IMG/VR virus record: IMGVR_UViG_3300042892_000715
Span: 1-37,761 of that record
Length of the DNA: 37,761 bases
Strand: one strand, 5' to 3'
Source: a virus
In this document: positions 291 through 12,972 of the stretch, piece by piece
Layout: each line of letters starts with the position of its first letter
Numbering within the stretch: position 1 is the stretch's first letter
The notes under the pieces: model-generated
Seen by the model: the letters and a program-made list of their open reading frames with translations, nothing else
Database searches by the model: none
Told to the model about the DNA's origin: nothing
Position numbers and translations under genes: made by a program

Positions 291-300
291 TAACAAACAT

Positions 301-330
301 AATAGTGGGCCCTTAACAGGGCTTGCTATT
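301..330 (+). terminator. Stem-loop after the first gene, probable terminator
   Basis: AATAGTGGGCCCT and AGGGCTTGCTATT pair over 13 bp (three G-U wobbles) around a TAAC loop. The hairpin lies 10 nt after a stop codon and is followed by GTTATTATATAT, which is U-rich but not a clean U-run. It probably ends the upstream transcript. Confidence 0.6.
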
Positions 331-539
331 GTTATTATATATAGGGTGGGAGTTTTATTGGGTGGGTAATCAAAAACTCTACATATATATAAGGAATAAA
401 AAGTTTTTACGGCTATGAAATAAACTTTTTGTGCGTTTAAATGATGATGAATAGACCCTCAAGCTATAAAGGTGTCTAATACAACAAGTGTTGAATATGG
501 TATTCAATACATTTATATAGCATTAATACATAGAAAGCA
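331..539 (+). other. Gene-less stretch with a chain of hairpins
   Basis: No convincing gene is visible. Three more stem-loops follow the terminator: 350-356 with 373-379 (GAGTTTT/AAAACTC), 398-406 with 422-430 (AAAAAGTTT/AAACTTTTT, 9 bp) and 491-497 with 501-507 (TTGAATA/TATTCAA, 3-nt loop). Such density of perfect stems in 210 nt suggests a leader or a non-coding RNA for the small gene at 540, but AT-rich sequence makes chance stems common. Confidence 0.4.
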
Positions 540-734
540 ATGAGTCCAAGAGAAAGAATGATAGAACAAACTACTAGATTTGCAATAGAACTTCTTATTA
601 ATAGGAAGTATAGTCTTATAGAAGCATATAATAATGATCTTGTTTCTTATGATTTATATGAATGTTTATTAATGGATATAGAACGAGATTTATATGTCTT
701 GTCTGGTGTTAGTATTGATGAACTATTTAATTAG
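540..734 (+). CDS. Small unknown protein (64 aa)
   Basis: ATG at 540 follows an A-rich leader (TAGAAAGCAATG), the usual initiation context here. The product starts MSPRERMIEQTTRFAIELL and is predicted mainly helical with an acidic second half (YECLLMDIERDLYVLSGVSIDELF). No known domain is recognised. It stands alone between two gene-less, hairpin-rich stretches, so it may be part of an RNA-rich locus. The amino-acid composition looks like a real protein, but the isolated position lowers confidence. Confidence 0.55.
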   Translation: MSPRERMIEQTTRFAIELLINRKYSLIEAYNNDLVSYDLYECLLMDIERDLYVLSGVSIDELFN

Positions 735-818
735 AGACTTGTTCTCGCTTAATACAAACATTTGTAATACCTGAATAGGTAACACATAAAAGAAAGGTAG
801 GAATAGACATAATATACA

Positions 819-847
819 TTGTTGAAGTATCCTTTTTATTACATTTG
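819..847 (+). promoter_or_regulatory. Bacteroidota-type promoter-like site
   Basis: TTG at 819-821 and TACATTTG at 840-847 (18-nt spacer) fit the Bacteroidota TTTG / TAnnTTTG pattern. Transcription would begin near 855, just before the first hairpin of the gene-less stretch, and would cover the tandem RNA elements. Confidence 0.4.
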
Positions 848-933
848 TTTAATACACATTTCTAACGGTTGTTAGAAATCCCTTGTTTAATGGACTGTGG
901 GTTAACAGAACATCTTAATGTATCATTCTAGTT

Positions 934-1318
934 TCCCAAGGACTAGCAATTGTAATATACTACAGAATAGGTAAATAGGCATATCGCTGAATAACTTACA
1001 ACACTGTGGTAACAAGAAGTAAGGTTGGAAAATGTGTGCACAACATGGACCATAAAACAAAGTTCCTACTATTACAATTGAATACAGAGGGTAATGTATC
1101 ATTCTCACGTAGATATAAAGACTTCTTAATTAACAACGAAAGTTGGTACACAAAAACAAATATGTTAAGATGTGAAACTACACTGATTACCAATTGAACA
1201 GCACTGAGGTGGTAAGTAAAAGGTCAGTAATTAGTCTCCCAAGGGTGAGCAGTTGTAATGTAAACATTAATCCCTAAGCAAGGTAATATGTAGCCTTGTT
1301 ACAACTGAATACAGAGGG
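934..1318 (+). ncRNA. Tandem structured RNA elements (two copies)
   Basis: Copy 1 has TCCCAAGG (934-941), then CAATTGTAATA (947-957) pairing over 11 bp with TATTACAATTG (1070-1080), then AATACAGAGGG (1081-1091). Copy 2 has TCCCAAGG (1237-1244), CAGTTGTAAT (1250-1259) pairing with GTTACAACTG (1298-1307), then AATACAGAGGG (1308-1318). The third pair changes from A-U to G-C with pairing kept, while flanking CCC and GGG strands and the AAUACAGA strand are invariant. The apical parts differ (about 112 versus 38 nt). A third, weaker copy may lie at 1141-1212 (AGTTGGTA/TACCAATT then GAACAGCACTGAGG). No known RNA family is recognised. Confidence 0.5.
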
Positions 1319-1485
1319 AATTAATTCTAGTATAACAGGATGGCTAGACATCATAAAAAACTTAATAACTTCCCAAGTTGTTGAGGGCACCAGTTTCTTT
1401 GAAGCTATTAAAGATTGTTTTAAAACAATATAGTATATCAAAGTTTTAGGTGTAAAACACAAATCAATTTAAACATAGAAAACAT

Positions 1486-1674
1486 ATGAAACAGAAAATC
1501 ACAAAAGAATTAACTCTCAATGAGACATTTGAGAGTCAGATTGCATCTATACCTAAAGAATTAAATGTTGTTAATGGTACATATTTAAGTTACGTAGGTG
1601 AAAACTCTCGTTTAGCCAGAAGAATTAAAGCTGGTAAAACTAATGGTAAGAAATATAAACACATTGAACACTAA
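1486..1674 (+). CDS. Small basic unknown protein (62 aa)
   Basis: ATG at 1486 follows CATAGAAAACAT, the local A-rich initiation context. The product has an acidic first half and a strongly basic end (LARRIKAGKTNGKKYKHIEH), suggesting nucleic-acid or phosphate contact, though nothing identifies a family. It is the first gene after the structured RNA stretch, with 23 nt to the next gene. Confidence 0.6.
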   Translation: MKQKITKELTLNETFESQIASIPKELNVVNGTYLSYVGENSRLARRIKAGKTNGKKYKHIEH

Positions 1675-1697
1675 CAATTTAATCAATCAATCAAATT

Positions 1698-1922
1698 ATG
1701 AAAGTATTAATCCTTATAGCTATATATATAGCTTCATTTATTAGCGTCTTTATGATGCTATCATTCGTTGGTTTTATCTTTGGATATAACTATTTAAATG
1801 TTCTCCATAATGATGGATGGCAATGTATATATTCCATTCTTATTGGCTGGTGGATAGCAATATTTCCAGCTAGAGAATATTATGTTAAACATCAATTTCA
1901 TTTAGATAGAGTGACAAGATAA
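1698..1922 (+). CDS. Small membrane protein, two transmembrane segments (74 aa)
   Basis: The first about 30 residues (MKVLILIAIYIASFISVFMM onward) form one hydrophobic segment. A second spans about residues 42-57 around CIYSILIGWWIAIFPA. The tail is basic (KHQFHLDRVTR), predicting a cytoplasmic C terminus. No family is recognised. In phages such small membrane proteins may act in superinfection exclusion or lysis control, but nothing here shows which. Confidence 0.65.
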   Translation: MKVLILIAIYIASFISVFMMLSFVGFIFGYNYLNVLHNDGWQCIYSILIGWWIAIFPAREYYVKHQFHLDRVTR

Positions 1923-1994
1923 TAATATTGCTCTGCCAAGGGCTGGACCTAAGCATGTCTATAAAACTGCTCTCACAATTTAATCATAGAAATC

Positions 1995-2168
1995 ATGGAT
2001 ACAACAACCATATTAATTAATGTATTAACTAAATCAATAAAAAAGAATGGTGAAGGACATGTTCTTACACTTGGTCATCTATTAAATATAGTCGAGCTTA
2101 TTGCTGAGATAGAAGAAAATCAAGCAATGAATGATGATATATATCCATACGATTCTAATTGGGACTAA
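1995..2168 (+). CDS. Small acidic unknown protein (57 aa)
   Basis: ATG at 1995 sits behind CATAGAAATCATG, a leader shared with several genes here, which supports the start. The product (MDTTTILINVLTKSIKKNGE..., ending DIYPYDSNWD) is mostly helical with an acidic tail. No family is recognised. TAA is at 2166-2168 and the next gene follows after 18 nt. Confidence 0.6.
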   Translation: MDTTTILINVLTKSIKKNGEGHVLTLGHLLNIVELIAEIEENQAMNDDIYPYDSNWD

Positions 2169-2186
2169 TTATTAAACAAAGAAATC

Positions 2187-2324
2187 ATGTCAGAAAACAC
2201 AGAAAGAAATTTAAGCATGTATATAATATTATTTATACTTGCAATGGGACTATTATCAGCATTAAGCTCATGTAGTTCAAGAACCTATTCAAATAGTCAT
2301 TCAAAATGCTATTTTAAGAAATAA
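2187..2324 (+). CDS. Lipoprotein-like small peptide (45 aa)
   Basis: The leader CAAAGAAATCATG supports the start at 2187. A charged N terminus (MSENTERN) precedes a hydrophobic stretch, then LSALSSCSS, which fits a signal-peptidase II lipobox with cysteine near residue 28. The mature part would be only about 17 residues. Small phage lipoproteins can block superinfecting phages or act at the outer membrane as spanin-like factors; neither is shown here. It may instead be a plain membrane anchor. Confidence 0.55.
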   Translation: MSENTERNLSMYIILFILAMGLLSALSSCSSRTYSNSHSKCYFKK

Positions 2325-2353
2325 ACTAGAAATCAATTAAACACTTAGAAATC

Positions 2354-3139
2354 ATGAACAAAAAATTAGCAGAATTAAAGAATCGTTTACAATTCTTATT
2401 AAAGAAATTAGGATGGATTACTGAATCATCTAAAGTTAAATTAAGTTATTTAGCTGGTATCAATAGACCAATTAATCCTTCACAAGTAACAAAGTTATGT
2501 AATTCACTTATGAAAATGGGTAATGTTAGACCTGTTATAGTATGTGAGATTGACTTTCTTAATGGTACAAAAGGACATTATATATTAGATGGTCAGCATT
2601 TATTTAATGCATTGTTGAGACTTGGTTGGGAAATTCCTTATGTAGTAATTGATGTTAAAGATAAGCAAGATCTAGTAGAGAAGATTGCATTATTAAACTC
2701 ATCATCTAAATCATGGACTATGCAAGATTATGTAGTAGCATGGGCTTCATTGAAACCTGATTATATAAAGCTGAATAAATACTTTCAGATATATGATATA
2801 GAAATTAGTATCCTTGCTGGTATTCTATCTAATGGAAGAGTTAGTAGTGCAGGTGATATAACTAAAACTATCAAAAATGGAGAATTTGTTATTCAAGATG
2901 AAGAGTCAAATCTATCTATAGTAAATGGTATTACAGATGTTTTGAAGTTTATTCCAAGAATGAATAGATTTGAGAATCGTTATGTTTGTTCTGAATATGT
3001 TAATTTTAGAAGAACAGAAGGATGTAATTATAATCATAAATCATTTCTAAAAAATCTTGAGGATAACAAAAAGCAATTCATTCTTGCCACTCAGGAACAA
3101 CAAAAATTATCAGACATGTTTAGAAAACTATCAAAATAA
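2354..3139 (+). CDS. ParB/Sulfiredoxin-fold (ParB N-terminal-like) domain protein
   Basis: 261 residues, with the start supported by CTTAGAAATCATG. Residues about 40-100 resemble the ParB N-terminal fold: a strand-rich region with GHYILDGQHLFNALLRLGW at 74-92, matching the family's xxDGQHRxxAxxxLG motif and keeping Gly, Gln and His but with Leu for the usual Arg. A charged helical C-terminal half follows, with no helix-turn-helix I can name. The fold is used by CTPases, nucleases and regulators, so the activity is open. It is the largest gene among many tiny ones, with no ParA or partition site nearby. Confidence 0.65.
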   Translation: MNKKLAELKNRLQFLLKKLGWITESSKVKLSYLAGINRPINPSQVTKLCNSLMKMGNVRPVIVCEIDFLNGTKGHYILDGQHLFNALLRLGWEIPYVVIDVKDKQDLVEKIALLNSSSKSWTMQDYVVAWASLKPDYIKLNKYFQIYDIEISILAGILSNGRVSSAGDITKTIKNGEFVIQDEESNLSIVNGITDVLKFIPRMNRFENRYVCSEYVNFRRTEGCNYNHKSFLKNLEDNKKQFILATQEQQKLSDMFRKLSK

Positions 3140-4377: not shown

Positions 4378-4819
4378 GGGGGTGACAGGAATAGACAGGA
4401 TGATTAAAGAGTAAAGCAACAAGCAGTGGGATGAATGGTATACCACTATAAAATGTACATTCAAGCTATAACAGGCAACAATAACGAAGCGAAAGTTGTT
4501 TCTCTAGGAGCAATGACTTTCAATGATGCAATCGCAATGGTATCTAATACTGTTGAGTTCGAATTAGCAGCATAGTGTTAAGGTTTAGATTTGTACCTTA
4601 AACAAATGCACGAAGACAGTTATGGGTATAGACTTTAAACGAACCTTTTGGTGGATTTCAACCTAACCAGTTGAGCCTTTTACTAATCAAGTAGAGAACC
4701 GTGAGTTGAGGTGTGTTTACATGCTATAAACGAGCAAACGTCATACTACTAGATTAAAGCTTGTACAATTGTTTTATGTCTGACATGTTTGGACGGGGAT
4801 TCGAATTCCCCCACCTCCA
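4378..4819 (+). ncRNA. ssrA: tmRNA (ssrA) with an unusually long tag frame
   Basis: tmRNA frees stalled ribosomes: it is charged with alanine, enters the A site and provides a short reading frame whose product marks the protein for proteolysis. The ends pair as GGGGGUG (4378-4384) with CACCUCC (4812-4818), keeping the alanine-identity G3-U70 wobble, then discriminator A. A T-arm GGGGATTCGAATTCCCC and a 5' stretch GTGACAGGAATAGACAGG match the conserved tRNA-like domain. The tag frame probably starts at GGC 4474 (base 97 of the RNA, near E. coli's 90) and reads GNNNEAKVV...EFELAA to TAG 4573-4575: 33 residues against 8-15 commonly. A helix TTAAGGT/ACCTTAA follows the tag stop. CCA is not encoded (CTCA), so it must be added. 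It has its own promoter and terminator. Confidence 0.92.
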
Positions 4820-4853
4820 CTCAATTATGATTGATTGATGATTAGTGTTTATT

Positions 4854-7196: not shown

Positions 7197-7313
7197 AGTC
7201 AGGTAGCTCAGTGGTTAAGAGCAGGTGGTGCGGGAAATGTATTGATACCCAATCTATCGGACACAACTAATACAAGTAAAGTGTAAACACAGGTTCGAAT
7301 CTTGTTCTGACTA
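7197..7313 (+). tRNA. tRNA-like element, 117 nt, anticodon arm not canonical
   Basis: The acceptor AGTCAGG (7197-7203) pairs with TCTGACT (7306-7312), discriminator A. The D arm GCTC-AGTGGTTAA-GAGC (7206-7222) and T arm ACAGG-TTCGAAT-CTTGT (7289-7305) are intact. Between them lie 66 nt, against about 23 in a normal tRNA. The only clean hairpin there, TGATA-CCCAATC-TATCG, lacks U33. It may carry an insertion, be decaying, or serve a non-decoding role. CCA is not encoded. Confidence 0.5.
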
Positions 7314-7439: not shown

Positions 7440-7524
7440 AGTCAGGTGGCGGAGTGGTTTAACACAAGGTAAGACATCTCATAGATGGCTCACTTATTCA
7501 CAGGTTCGAATCCTGTCCTGACTA
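7440..7524 (+). tRNA. tRNA-like element, 85 nt, possible CAU anticodon
   Basis: The acceptor AGTCAGG (7440-7446) pairs perfectly with CCTGACT (7517-7523), discriminator A. The T arm ACAGG-TTCGAAT-CCTGT is perfect. The D region GCGGAGTGGTTTAACAC resembles tRNA-Ser/Leu types but its stem is poor. A 7-nt loop CTCATAG between GACAT and ATGGC has U33 and would give anticodon CAU, with one mismatched pair and about 7 nt too many before it. An alternative arm GGTAAG/CTTATT leaves a 19-nt loop. It shares acceptor and T-arm sequence with the element at 7197, so the two look like paralogues. Confidence 0.55.
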
Positions 7525-10292: not shown

Positions 10293-11018
10293 ATGAAACG
10301 AATAAACAACTTTGATGATGATTACTTTGAATTGATTGATAGTGAAGAAAAAGCTTATTTCTTAGGACTATTATTTGCTGATGGTAATGTTTACACTGCT
10401 AGAAATAGAGTACAAATAACTTTAGCTAATGAAGATGCTTACATATTAAAAAAATTTGCTGATTGTATTGGATACACAGGTAAGTTATATATTGATAGAG
10501 AGAAATATTCTAAACTTATACTACCAAGTAAAAAAATGTGTGCAGATTTAACTAAGTTAGGATGTACTCCTAATAAATCTTTAACTTTACAATTTCCAAC
10601 AGAAGTTCCAGAAGAATTAATGAATCATTTTATTAGAGGTTGCTTTGATGGTGATGGACATGTAAGTAGAAGAAATAGCTGCTTCAATACAAACTTTACT
10701 TCTAGTAATAATTTTATGAAAGAGTTTATAAAACTCTTAGATTCACTTAATGTAGAATACACTACTCCTTCAAAAAGATATATTGATCATGAAGAAAGCG
10801 CATATCAAGTATACATTAGAAGTAGTTCTCATAGTAATTTCTTTACTTATCTTTATAAAGATTCAACTTTATATTTAACTAGAAAAAAAGATATTGTAGA
10901 TCTTCCTATTATTATAAAAGAAAAGAAATTTTGTAGTAAGTGTAGTGAGAAACATTTTGCAAAAGGGTTTTGTAAAAGTCATTATAGAAATAATTATTTT
11001 AAATTACATGGAGTATAA
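10293..11018 (+). CDS. LAGLIDADG homing endonuclease
   Basis: A rare-cutting DNA endonuclease that spreads its own gene. Two LAGLIDADG-type helices, AYFLGLLFADG at 21-31 and HFIRGCFDGDG at 112-122, each keep the acidic residue that binds the catalytic metal, so one chain should form the whole active site. The C terminus carries FCSKCSEKHFAKGFCKSHYR, a C-x2-C...C-x2-H zinc knuckle that may add DNA contacts. At 241 residues the length is typical. No intein splice residues flank it and it is not inside another gene. It has its own promoter and its end overlaps the polymerase start by 11 nt, so it probably inserted just 5' of the polymerase and now shares its transcript. Confidence 0.85.
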   Translation: MKRINNFDDDYFELIDSEEKAYFLGLLFADGNVYTARNRVQITLANEDAYILKKFADCIGYTGKLYIDREKYSKLILPSKKMCADLTKLGCTPNKSLTLQFPTEVPEELMNHFIRGCFDGDGHVSRRNSCFNTNFTSSNNFMKEFIKLLDSLNVEYTTPSKRYIDHEESAYQVYIRSSSHSNFFTYLYKDSTLYLTRKKDIVDLPIIIKEKKFCSKCSEKHFAKGFCKSHYRNNYFKLHGV

Positions 11019-12972
11019 CTTAGAAGTTGTCATTTTCGACATAGAAACCATGCAAGAAATGTTTCTTGTTGGTGTATATTACCCTGATGGTAGAAAGTAT
11101 TATGAATTCGAAGTTAGTGCGTATGTTAACCAACTAGATGCCTTTGTAAGGTTCACTGAATCATATGATGACTGCTATTGGGTTGGTTACAACAATCTGC
11201 GCTTTGATAGCCAGGTGGTTGAATGGGTTCTTAGAAATCATGATAAGTGGAATGAACTATCATCATTAGAGATATGTGCTAAGATTGCACAGAAAGCTGC
11301 TGATGTTATTCATGATGCTAATTATGATGTCTTCCCAGAATATAGAGAGTATGAACTATCATTAAAACAGTTAGACTTATTTAAGATAAATCATTACGAT
11401 AATAAAAATCGTATGGTATCATTAAAAAGGTTAGAGTTTGAGATGGATCTTATTAATATTGAAGAGATGCCAATACATCATACTAAAATCAATATGACTG
11501 CTGAAGAGTGTAAGCTAACCAGAGACTATTGTAAGAATGATGTTATGGCAACTTATGAATTCTATAAGGTTACCACAGGTGATTGTGAGCATCCATTATA
11601 CAAACAGAACAATCAGATACAGTTGAGACTTGATATACAGGAGGAATTCGGTATACCATGTCTTAACTATTCTGATAGTAAGATTGGTGATGAGATGATT
11701 AAGAAGTTTTATTGCCAAGAGAAGAATATACAATACAATGAATTACCAAAGAAAGCAACTTTTCGTAAAGAGATTGTTGTAAAGAATTGTATTGCTGATT
11801 TTGTTACATTTACAACACCACAGTTAAAAGAGTTCTTAACTCGTATAAAAAAACTTAAGCTAGGAATAGCTGATGAATTCAAAGAGTCCATTAACTTTTA
11901 TGATAATGTTTATTCATTCATGAAAGGTGGTTTGCATACAGAGAATAAACCTAAGATATTTGAAGCTGATGATGAGTATTTGATTATTGATTGGGATGTG
12001 TCTAGTTACTATCCTGCCATCATTATTAACAGTGAGAAATATCCTGCTCATTTAGGTAAAGAGTTTCTTAGAGGTTACAAACAGATGTTTGAGAAAAGAC
12101 TAGAGCTTAAACCATTAGCTAAGAGTGATAGAAAGATTGCTGGTATTGTAGGAGCTTTAAAGCTTGCTGTCAATAGTGTTTATGGTAAGAGTAGTGATAT
12201 GCAAAGCTGGATATATGATAGACTATTAACTATGTTTACCACCATCACTGGTGAGTTGAGCTTAATGATGTTAGTTGAAGCATATGAATTAGCTGGCATA
12301 CATGTCATCTCTGCTAATACAGATGGTGTCACTGTTAAAATACAGAAGACACACGTTAACAAGATGTTTGAGATTAATAAGTGGTGGTGTGAACTAACAC
12401 AGTTTGAATTAGAACGTACAGATTATCAAAAAATCATTTTCAGTACAGTGAATGACTATTTAGCAATAATGACCAATGGTAAGATTAAAAAGAAAGGTGA
12501 CTTCCTTACAGATTTTGAACTACATAAGAACAAGTCTGCACGTGTGGTCCCAATTGCTCTTGAGCAGTGGTTTGTTCATGGTGTACCTGTTGAGACTACT
12601 ATTCAGAATCATAAAAACATATATGATTTCGCTCTTCGTCAAAAAGCAAGCAGAAGCTTTCACTATGAAGGTTCTAGTAAATCAGGAAGAACAGTGTACA
12701 ACAAACTGATAAGATATTATGTATCTAATGTGGGTGAGAAGTTATGGAAGATAAAGAATGAAGACTGTGATACTAATGCTGCTGAAGTCTCTCAAGTGGA
12801 AGCTGGTGAATGGGTTTGTCATGTATGTAACTATTTAACTAAAGGTCATCCAATGAGTAATATCAATTATGATTATTACATTGAGAAGGCTAATAGAATA
12901 GTTAGTAAGATAAAGCTTGAAGGCAGAAGAAATAGAGTGGTTGTTATACCTAACCAAATATCAATGTTCTAA
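11008..12972 (+). CDS. Family B DNA polymerase with 3'-5' exonuclease
   Basis: Replicative polymerase of 654 residues. Exonuclease motifs: FDIET at 10-14, YNNLRFD at 61-67, YCKND at 174-178. Polymerase motif A is DWDVSSYYP at 328-336, motif B KLAVNSVYG at 385-393, and motif C ANTDGV at 436-441. Motif C keeps the essential second Asp but has Asn where most family B enzymes have the first Asp of DTD. I chose ATG 11008 because the earlier in-frame ATG (10945) lies within the endonuclease gene and the residues it adds precede the first conserved block. The size is smaller than T4 gp43. It opens the replication block; the next gene starts on the last A of its stop codon. Confidence 0.93.
   Translation: MEYNLEVVIFDIETMQEMFLVGVYYPDGRKYYEFEVSAYVNQLDAFVRFTESYDDCYWVGYNNLRFDSQVVEWVLRNHDKWNELSSLEICAKIAQKAADVIHDANYDVFPEYREYELSLKQLDLFKINHYDNKNRMVSLKRLEFEMDLINIEEMPIHHTKINMTAEECKLTRDYCKNDVMATYEFYKVTTGDCEHPLYKQNNQIQLRLDIQEEFGIPCLNYSDSKIGDEMIKKFYCQEKNIQYNELPKKATFRKEIVVKNCIADFVTFTTPQLKEFLTRIKKLKLGIADEFKESINFYDNVYSFMKGGLHTENKPKIFEADDEYLIIDWDVSSYYPAIIINSEKYPAHLGKEFLRGYKQMFEKRLELKPLAKSDRKIAGIVGALKLAVNSVYGKSSDMQSWIYDRLLTMFTTITGELSLMMLVEAYELAGIHVISANTDGVTVKIQKTHVNKMFEINKWWCELTQFELERTDYQKIIFSTVNDYLAIMTNGKIKKKGDFLTDFELHKNKSARVVPIALEQWFVHGVPVETTIQNHKNIYDFALRQKASRSFHYEGSSKSGRTVYNKLIRYYVSNVGEKLWKIKNEDCDTNAAEVSQVEAGEWVCHVCNYLTKGHPMSNINYDYYIEKANRIVSKIKLEGRRNRVVVIPNQISMF

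Follow-up and report, generated by a model that had tools for sequence, protein, structure and literature searches.

Pistol ribozymes (RF02679) contain a pseudoknot that joins loop 1 to the P2-P3 junction and have 10 conserved bases (PMC4604425). The GOLLD and ROOL RNAs, whose function is unknown, often lie near tRNA genes (PMC12286853), and the putRNA of phage HK022 is an RNA of about 70 nt that lies near early promoters and consists of two stem-loops (PMC9378689). In crAss-like phages, which carry a virion RNA polymerase, the early genes are transcribed first (PMC10136315).

The stretch of viral DNA analyzed here (the window; 37,761 nucleotides) contains, at positions 917 to 1318, two abutting copies of one RNA family with a single base between them. 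The element shares with pistol its three stems, a hairpin-loop pseudoknot, a compact core, and occurrence in phages. Unlike in pistol, however, loop 2 is proposed to pair with the tail 3' of P1, and the pistol model, which finds a pistol ribozyme elsewhere in one related locus (L243), finds none at the elements. The hatchet ribozyme (RF02678) shares a phage region with the element in two loci (L148 and L154) without a match in sequence or structure. The preliminary description of this DNA had likened the locus to the setting of GOLLD and ROOL; the setting does agree, being a noncoding stretch of a phage genome with tmRNA- and tRNA-like genes downstream, but neither model matches the element and the architecture differs. 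GOLLD and ROOL are much larger, at several hundred to more than 800 nt (many GOLLD RNAs exceed 800 nt), and contain several pseudoknots, in contrast to an element whose core measures 61 to 65 nt and whose larger form, type 2, measures 226 to 372 nt. With HK022 putRNA the element would share its place in a phage early transcript and its presence in one or two copies, but putRNA has neither a three-way junction nor a pseudoknot. No Rfam 15 family matched the element at the gathering cutoff in the window and 22 related loci, or at E values up to 10 in window positions 300 to 2400 and in regions of L204 and L294, and no published description of the RNA family was found in openly licensed PMC papers.

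The element almost certainly represents a new RNA family, with a predicted secondary structure in which P1, P2, and P3 form a three-way junction. The novelty concerns the family and its fold.

Architecture of the tandem elements

Window positions 850 to 1480 were read and folded. Both copies of TCCCAAGG (934 and 1237) and both copies of GAATACAGAGGG (1080 and 1307) are present as originally reported, as is a helix in which an A-U pair of one copy is replaced by a compensatory G-C pair in the other. The two copies are real, but their extents had to be redrawn: copy 1 starts at 917 with AAUGUAUCAUU, which adds a further helix, P1 (Table 1), and copy 2 starts not at 1237 but at 1093, immediately 3' of copy 1, with the 5' half AATGTATCATTCTCAC. 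This 5' half had been overlooked because 127 nt (1109 to 1235) are inserted in the P2 loop. The weaker third copy proposed at 1141 to 1212 is no copy at all but part of that insert, and promoter-like sites of the kind noted upstream number 9 versus 14.7 expected, no more than chance. A match of the type 1 model to copy 2 at 1225 to 1321 was rejected as a local alignment forced on the sequence; the real 5' half lies at 1093 to 1108.

Table 1. Coordinates of the two elements and their parts in the window
Feature	Position	Strand	Evidence
Copy 1, type 1 element, 175 nt, three-way junction and proposed loop-tail pseudoknot	917..1091	+	12-member alignment, pair counts
Copy 1 P1, 5' strand UGUAU; partner AUACA 1082-1086	919..923	+	Family covariation
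Copy 1 P2 hairpin, CUAGU (928-932)/ACUAG (942-946), loop UUCCCAAGG (933-941)	928..946	+	5/5 pairs covary
Copy 1 P3, 947-957 with 1070-1080, variable apical part between	947..1080	+	Pair counts
Copy 1 3' tail GAGGG; proposed pairing of GGG 1089-1091 with loop 2 CCC 935-937	1087..1091	+	
Copy 2, type 2 element, 226 nt, core as in copy 1 plus loop 2 insert domain	1093..1318	+	29 full-length type 2 elements, pair counts
Copy 2 P1, 5' strand UGUAU; partner AUACA 1309-1313	1095..1099	+	Type 2 pair counts
Copy 2 P2, 5' strand CUCAC; partner GUGAG 1245-1249 across insert	1104..1108	+	Type 2 pair counts
Insert subdomain Pa, GUAG 1109-1112/CUAC 1178-1181, conserved internal loop AUAUAAAG/GAAA	1109..1181	+	
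Pa inner helix, ACUUCUUA 1121-1128/UAAGAUGU 1166-1173, constant U-U mismatch		+	
Insert subdomain Pb, 1182-1190 with 1227-1235	1182..1235	+	8/8 counted pairs covary
Copy 2 loop 2 remainder CUCCCAAGG; proposed pairing of CCC 1238-1240 with GGG 1316-1318	1236..1244	+	
Copy 2 P3, 1250-1260 with 1297-1307	1250..1307	+	Type 2 pair counts
Copy 2 3' tail GAGGG	1314..1318	+	

Across the family, the core order is 5'-U-AA-P1-CA(UU or UAA or CAA)-P2-UUCCCAAGG-P2'-P3-(variable)-P3'-A-P1'-GAGGG-R, in which the U before AA is 96% conserved and the purine after GAGGG about 89%. Among members, the tip of P3 can be almost absent or as long as 288 nt, and no conserved word is widely shared inside the apical parts. 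The loop-tail pseudoknot UCCC/GGGR is very probably real: its three C-G pairs are invariant in the members, and a fourth pair, U-A or U-G, is found in 46 of 56 type 1 and 24 of 25 type 2 members, copy 1 of the window being an exception with U in the purine position. Because the bases of this pairing are invariant, covariation speaks for it solely through the one-sided U-A/U-G change at the fourth pair.

The type 2 domain is inserted exactly 3' of the P2 5' strand and comprises, in order, a helix of GUGG/CCAC or GUAG/CUAC (Pa), an internal loop, an inner helix with a constant U-U mismatch, the fully covarying helix Pb, and then C/U-UCCCAAGG. Copy 2 is the shortest of the 29 full-length type 2 elements (the window's included), and its 127-nt insert is conserved in about 30 other phages. 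In L252, a type 1 element is followed by an abutting type 2 element, as in the window.

The minimum free energy fold of copy 1 has the same P1, P2, and P3 as the alignment model, and for copy 2 the proposed type 2 fold has -38.2 kcal/mol versus -41.8 kcal/mol for the unconstrained minimum, the pseudoknot not being credited. Single-sequence folding energies are unremarkable for the two copies (z scores of -0.76 and -0.30), so the case for an RNA family rests on covariation. Within the window, GAATACAGAGGG with up to three mismatches occurs 29 times versus 28 expected; words shared within the window alone could be coincidence, and the evidence must therefore come from relatives. Separately, window positions 1368 to 1390 (AACTTCCCAAGTTGTTGAGGG) have the potential for a small hairpin and a CCC/GGG pseudoknot, resembling the element in miniature; this feature is not conserved in the related locus L006.

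Family members and covariation

A first pattern, TCCCAAGG-N60..90-GAATACAGAGGG, matched five stretches in viral contigs, one of which comes from the window's own phage or one nearly identical to it. In the remaining four, AATGTATCAT precedes the element and a 5-bp hairpin encloses the loop UUCCCAAGG; the stems of the hairpin vary yet stay complementary (CUAGU/ACUAG, CUGGU/ACCAG, CUCAC/GUGAG, and CUAAC/GUUAG). Two scans with the 5' half enlarged the set to the 12 members of the first model. A relaxed 5'-half pattern had at least 120 matches in viral contigs, with 117 complete elements among the matches listed, and 54 viral contigs matched a DNA pattern for the loop 2 insert. When the retrieved loci were searched jointly by structure, 137 type 1 and 31 type 2 elements were identified in 152 loci, a few of which overlap or come from near-identical phages. 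From the viral contig scans, the family has members in at least about 150 loci, in well over 100 other uncultured phages, usually at one locus per phage record of 58 to 128 kb. Type 1 elements are 61 to 354 nt long, the smallest (61 to 65 nt) being those of L159 and L191. A type 2-like element was also observed in L316, a contig whose 345,454 bases far exceed the 75 to 130 kb that is usual; this suggests transfer between phage groups.

Near-identical DNA was not found in named phages, and a covariance model search of eight named relatives (Cellulophaga phages phi17:2 and phi4:1, Leptolyngbya phage Lbo-JY46, csAssE-Sib, cr114_1, cr50_1, ProJPt-Bp1, and crAss001) yielded no more than weak matches; where these were inspected, in phi17:2 and crAss001, they lie inside coding sequence. 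The first scan of bacterial genomes gave seven matches, all unrelated when inspected, and under stricter filters model R2 had no match in 395 Bacteroidota genomes.

The 5'-half pattern used for an unselected test is silent on P1', P2', P3', and the 3' tail. Among the matches listed for this pattern alone, P2 was complete (5/5 pairs) in 103 of 108 distinct matches, P1 was complete (5/5 pairs, beside P3') in 99 of 105, and GAGGG stood at the predicted place in 97 of 105. Changes on both sides of a pair were seen at 13 of 24 pairs in the 12 members of the first model, at 19 of 25 pairs in a set of 56 type 1 members (0 of 500 shuffles), and at 22 of 44 pairs in 25 type 2 members. The share of paired cells, 96.5% in the 56 type 1 members versus 33 to 53% for slid partners and 98.2% in the type 2 members versus 31 to 47% in the control, is inflated because these larger sets were filtered for pairing. 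AATG and TTCCCAAGG were fixed by the search patterns, but the kinds of pair were not fixed by the pairing filter, and less strict searches show variants (P1 CACAC/GUGUG and loop CCCAAGA).

P1 occurs as UGUAU/AUACA, UGCAC/GUGCA, UGUAC/GUACA, UGCAU/AUGCA, UGCGU/ACGCA, and CACAC/GUGUG. The change from the window's UGUAU/AUACA to UGCAC/GUGCA in L004, from a phage close to that of the window, supports this third helix by covariation. In the insert, Pa is GUGG/CCAC versus GUAG/CUAC in 21 versus 8 of 29 elements and in 17 versus 8 of 25. In these alignments, the covariation of P1, P2, P3, and the insert helices is overwhelming. When the stem cells are read as the + strand, G-U is found 32 times versus A-C once, which points to + strand RNA as the folding molecule. 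The initial suggestion of a possibly new structured phage RNA family has therefore withstood three attempts at refutation: homologues with the helix conserved are numerous in viral contigs, pair changes lie far above the slid-partner and shuffle controls, and no known Rfam family was matched.

Genomic setting and neighboring RNAs

TerL of an element-bearing locus has 40% identity to that of Leptolyngbya phage Lbo-JY46, 31% to those of Cellulophaga phages phi17:2 and phi4:1, and 25 to 27% to those of named Crassvirales genomes; on sequence grounds, the element-bearing phages are crAss-like in the wide sense. No TerL was identified in the window fragment, which is linked to the crAss-like group by gene order and by gene sharing with L006. 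The element usually lies where the late and early arms diverge, in sense with the genes. To its left, at 1.3 to 9 kb and on the minus strand, are late genes that include TerL and a gene judged IHF-like by eye, and to its right, on the plus strand, are a ParB-like gene and other small early genes. ORFs are on the strand of the element in 97 of 107 cases upstream and 98 of 104 downstream. The next ORF is 8 to 1310 nt away, and the commonest near neighbor is common to only 11 loci; since no constant class of gene follows the element directly, a riboswitch is unlikely. Across 109 related loci, strong hairpins that are unrelated in sequence, some of them followed by U runs, end 2 to 7 nt before the element about 20 times as often as in the control.

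The word TATATAGCATTAA is repeated upstream of small ORFs, at 514 to 526 in the window and in 18 of the 109 related loci, and is perhaps a promoter or leader signal. An ORF at 10293 to 11018 of the window, homing endonuclease-like by eye, overlaps the start of a DNA polymerase/exonuclease-like ORF (10945 to 12972) and is possibly an intron or intein-like insertion.

Several other RNAs were observed near the element. Hatchet ribozymes lie about 1.1 to 1.2 kb upstream of it in L148 (5635 to 5767) and L154 (6387 to 6553), and a pistol ribozyme lies about 0.5 kb upstream in L243 (13780 to 13840), all on the same strand. A second, unrelated RNA-like element, motif B, is found upstream in about 28 loci (among them L160, L169, L171, L172, L191, L200, L202, L204, L228, L232, and L242), mostly 90 to 670 nt away, although it sometimes abuts the main element. 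Motif B is 48 to 159 nt long, reads ACUCUCA-UCCAA(UU)GCAGG-(variable)-CAAGG-GUUGCAA-CCUUG-UGAGAGU, and has no Rfam family; both its P1 (ACUCUUG/CAAGAGU and UCUCUCA/UGAGAGA) and a loop contact (UUGCA/UGCAA to UUGUA/UACAG) covary. Downstream in the window, at 4378 to 4822, a covariance model detects a tmRNA (73 bits) that was missed by ARAGORN and whose frame, NNEAKVVSLGAMTFNDAIAMVSNTVEFELAA-stop, encodes a tag that is unusually long and ends in LAA. In L125, too, a tmRNA lies downstream of the element, at about 1 kb. At 7197 to 7313 and 7440 to 7524, the window has two tRNA-like genes that share almost the same acceptor arm and that ARAGORN does not find; the former, 117 nt in length, carries a long insertion, possibly an intron, in its anticodon/variable region. 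In L278 (G003:62684-64378), a TROVE/Ro60-like protein is encoded about 7 kb downstream of the element.

Proposed role and alternatives

RNA families with such covariation and loop conservation have previously proved to be ribozymes, riboswitches, or large RNPs. For this family we favor an early-made RNA that docks a factor, ahead of a ribozyme, a cis regulator, and a DNA signal, in that order. We infer that the element RNA would be transcribed as the + strand with the early arm and would persist as a stable, trans-acting noncoding RNA, made from an RNA gene stretch that also holds tRNA- and tmRNA-like genes, ribozymes, and motif B. The invariant loops (AA, CA, UUCCCAAGG, and GAGGG) would present a surface on which a factor of the host or the phage docks, and the element would act as an RNP scaffold or decoy, helping takeover or countering defense. 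The apical part is dispensable, as in the members of 61 to 65 nt, while the core is fixed, and the combination of a rigid core, constant loop bases, and a free tip recalls ribozymes and RNAs that bind proteins. In the type 2 domain, the internal loop and the U-U mismatch, both constant, suggest a second site for docking or for a tertiary contact. We regard the trans-acting, factor-binding role as tentative, its chance falling a little short of even, and taken as a whole, an early-made stable structured RNA docking a factor is an explanation for which we see balanced prospects.

The abutting copies and the nearby hatchet and pistol ribozymes also fit a ribozyme, and the hairpins that end just upstream could indicate a role in cis; both observations count against a trans-acting RNA. 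A new class of small self-cleaving ribozyme, having the core of about 61 to 65 nt with its three stems and pseudoknot, would cut at the conserved U-AAUG junction or beside it and trim early-transcript RNAs, the inserts at P3 and in loop 2 being peripheral. Size and architecture, including about 20 conserved unpaired bases, resemble those of pistol (PMC4604425), and the 96% conservation of the U at -1 is in keeping with such a cut; however, known ribozymes occur in only 3 of the 22 related loci scanned, and the complexity of type 2 exceeds what a small ribozyme needs, so that we consider this reading unlikely, if the foremost of the alternatives. Ranked below it, and likewise improbable, is a cis-acting element of the nascent early transcript, comparable to HK022 putRNA, that would act on the elongating polymerase or set the RNA 5' end after a terminator. 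The usual presence of one locus in a genome, its placement where the early arm starts, the sense strand, the terminator-like nature of the upstream hairpins, and the size and promoter-proximal position of putRNA (PMC9378689) are consistent with it, but the early genes of the crAss-like phage phi14:2 are made by the virion RNA polymerase (PMC10136315), few + strand terminators lie downstream in the early arm of the window, putRNA has a simpler fold, and the type 2 domain would be left unexplained. As a gauge of antitermination, the small number of downstream terminators is uninformative.

The position near the divergent region between the arms and the virion RNA polymerase of crAss-like phages (PMC10136315) would also suit a folded single-stranded DNA signal, either a replication origin or an N4-like hairpin promoter for that polymerase, yet the preponderance of G-U over A-C is the mark of + strand RNA, and the size and apical inserts are unlike those of hairpin promoters, which makes a DNA signal very improbable. 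Least credible of all is a Y RNA-like partner of a phage Ro60/TROVE protein. Phage crAss001 expresses a TROVE protein early (PMC10136315) and record G003 encodes one, but TROVE was found in only 1 or 2 of about 25 element-bearing records by a search that does detect the crAss001 protein, and crAss001 itself is without the element.

Returning to the favored factor-docking RNA, we advance with reserve, and with less conviction than that role itself, a wider proposal that leaves room for catalysis: the family may be a new functional RNA class, catalytic or an RNP scaffold, deployed as a bare three-way core or as the core plus a conserved domain. It would be a single unit of a modular array that combines unrelated structured RNAs (the element family, motif B, hatchet, pistol, and tRNA/tmRNA) at the start of the early arm of large uncultured phages, serving to take over or disarm the host. 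The family offers about 150 examples or more in two architectures, its core of about 61 to 65 nt can be synthesized in vitro, and its position at the start of the early arm is fixed, so that the function is directly testable; it also shows that the noncoding part of crAss-like phage genomes is a source of RNA devices still to be mined.
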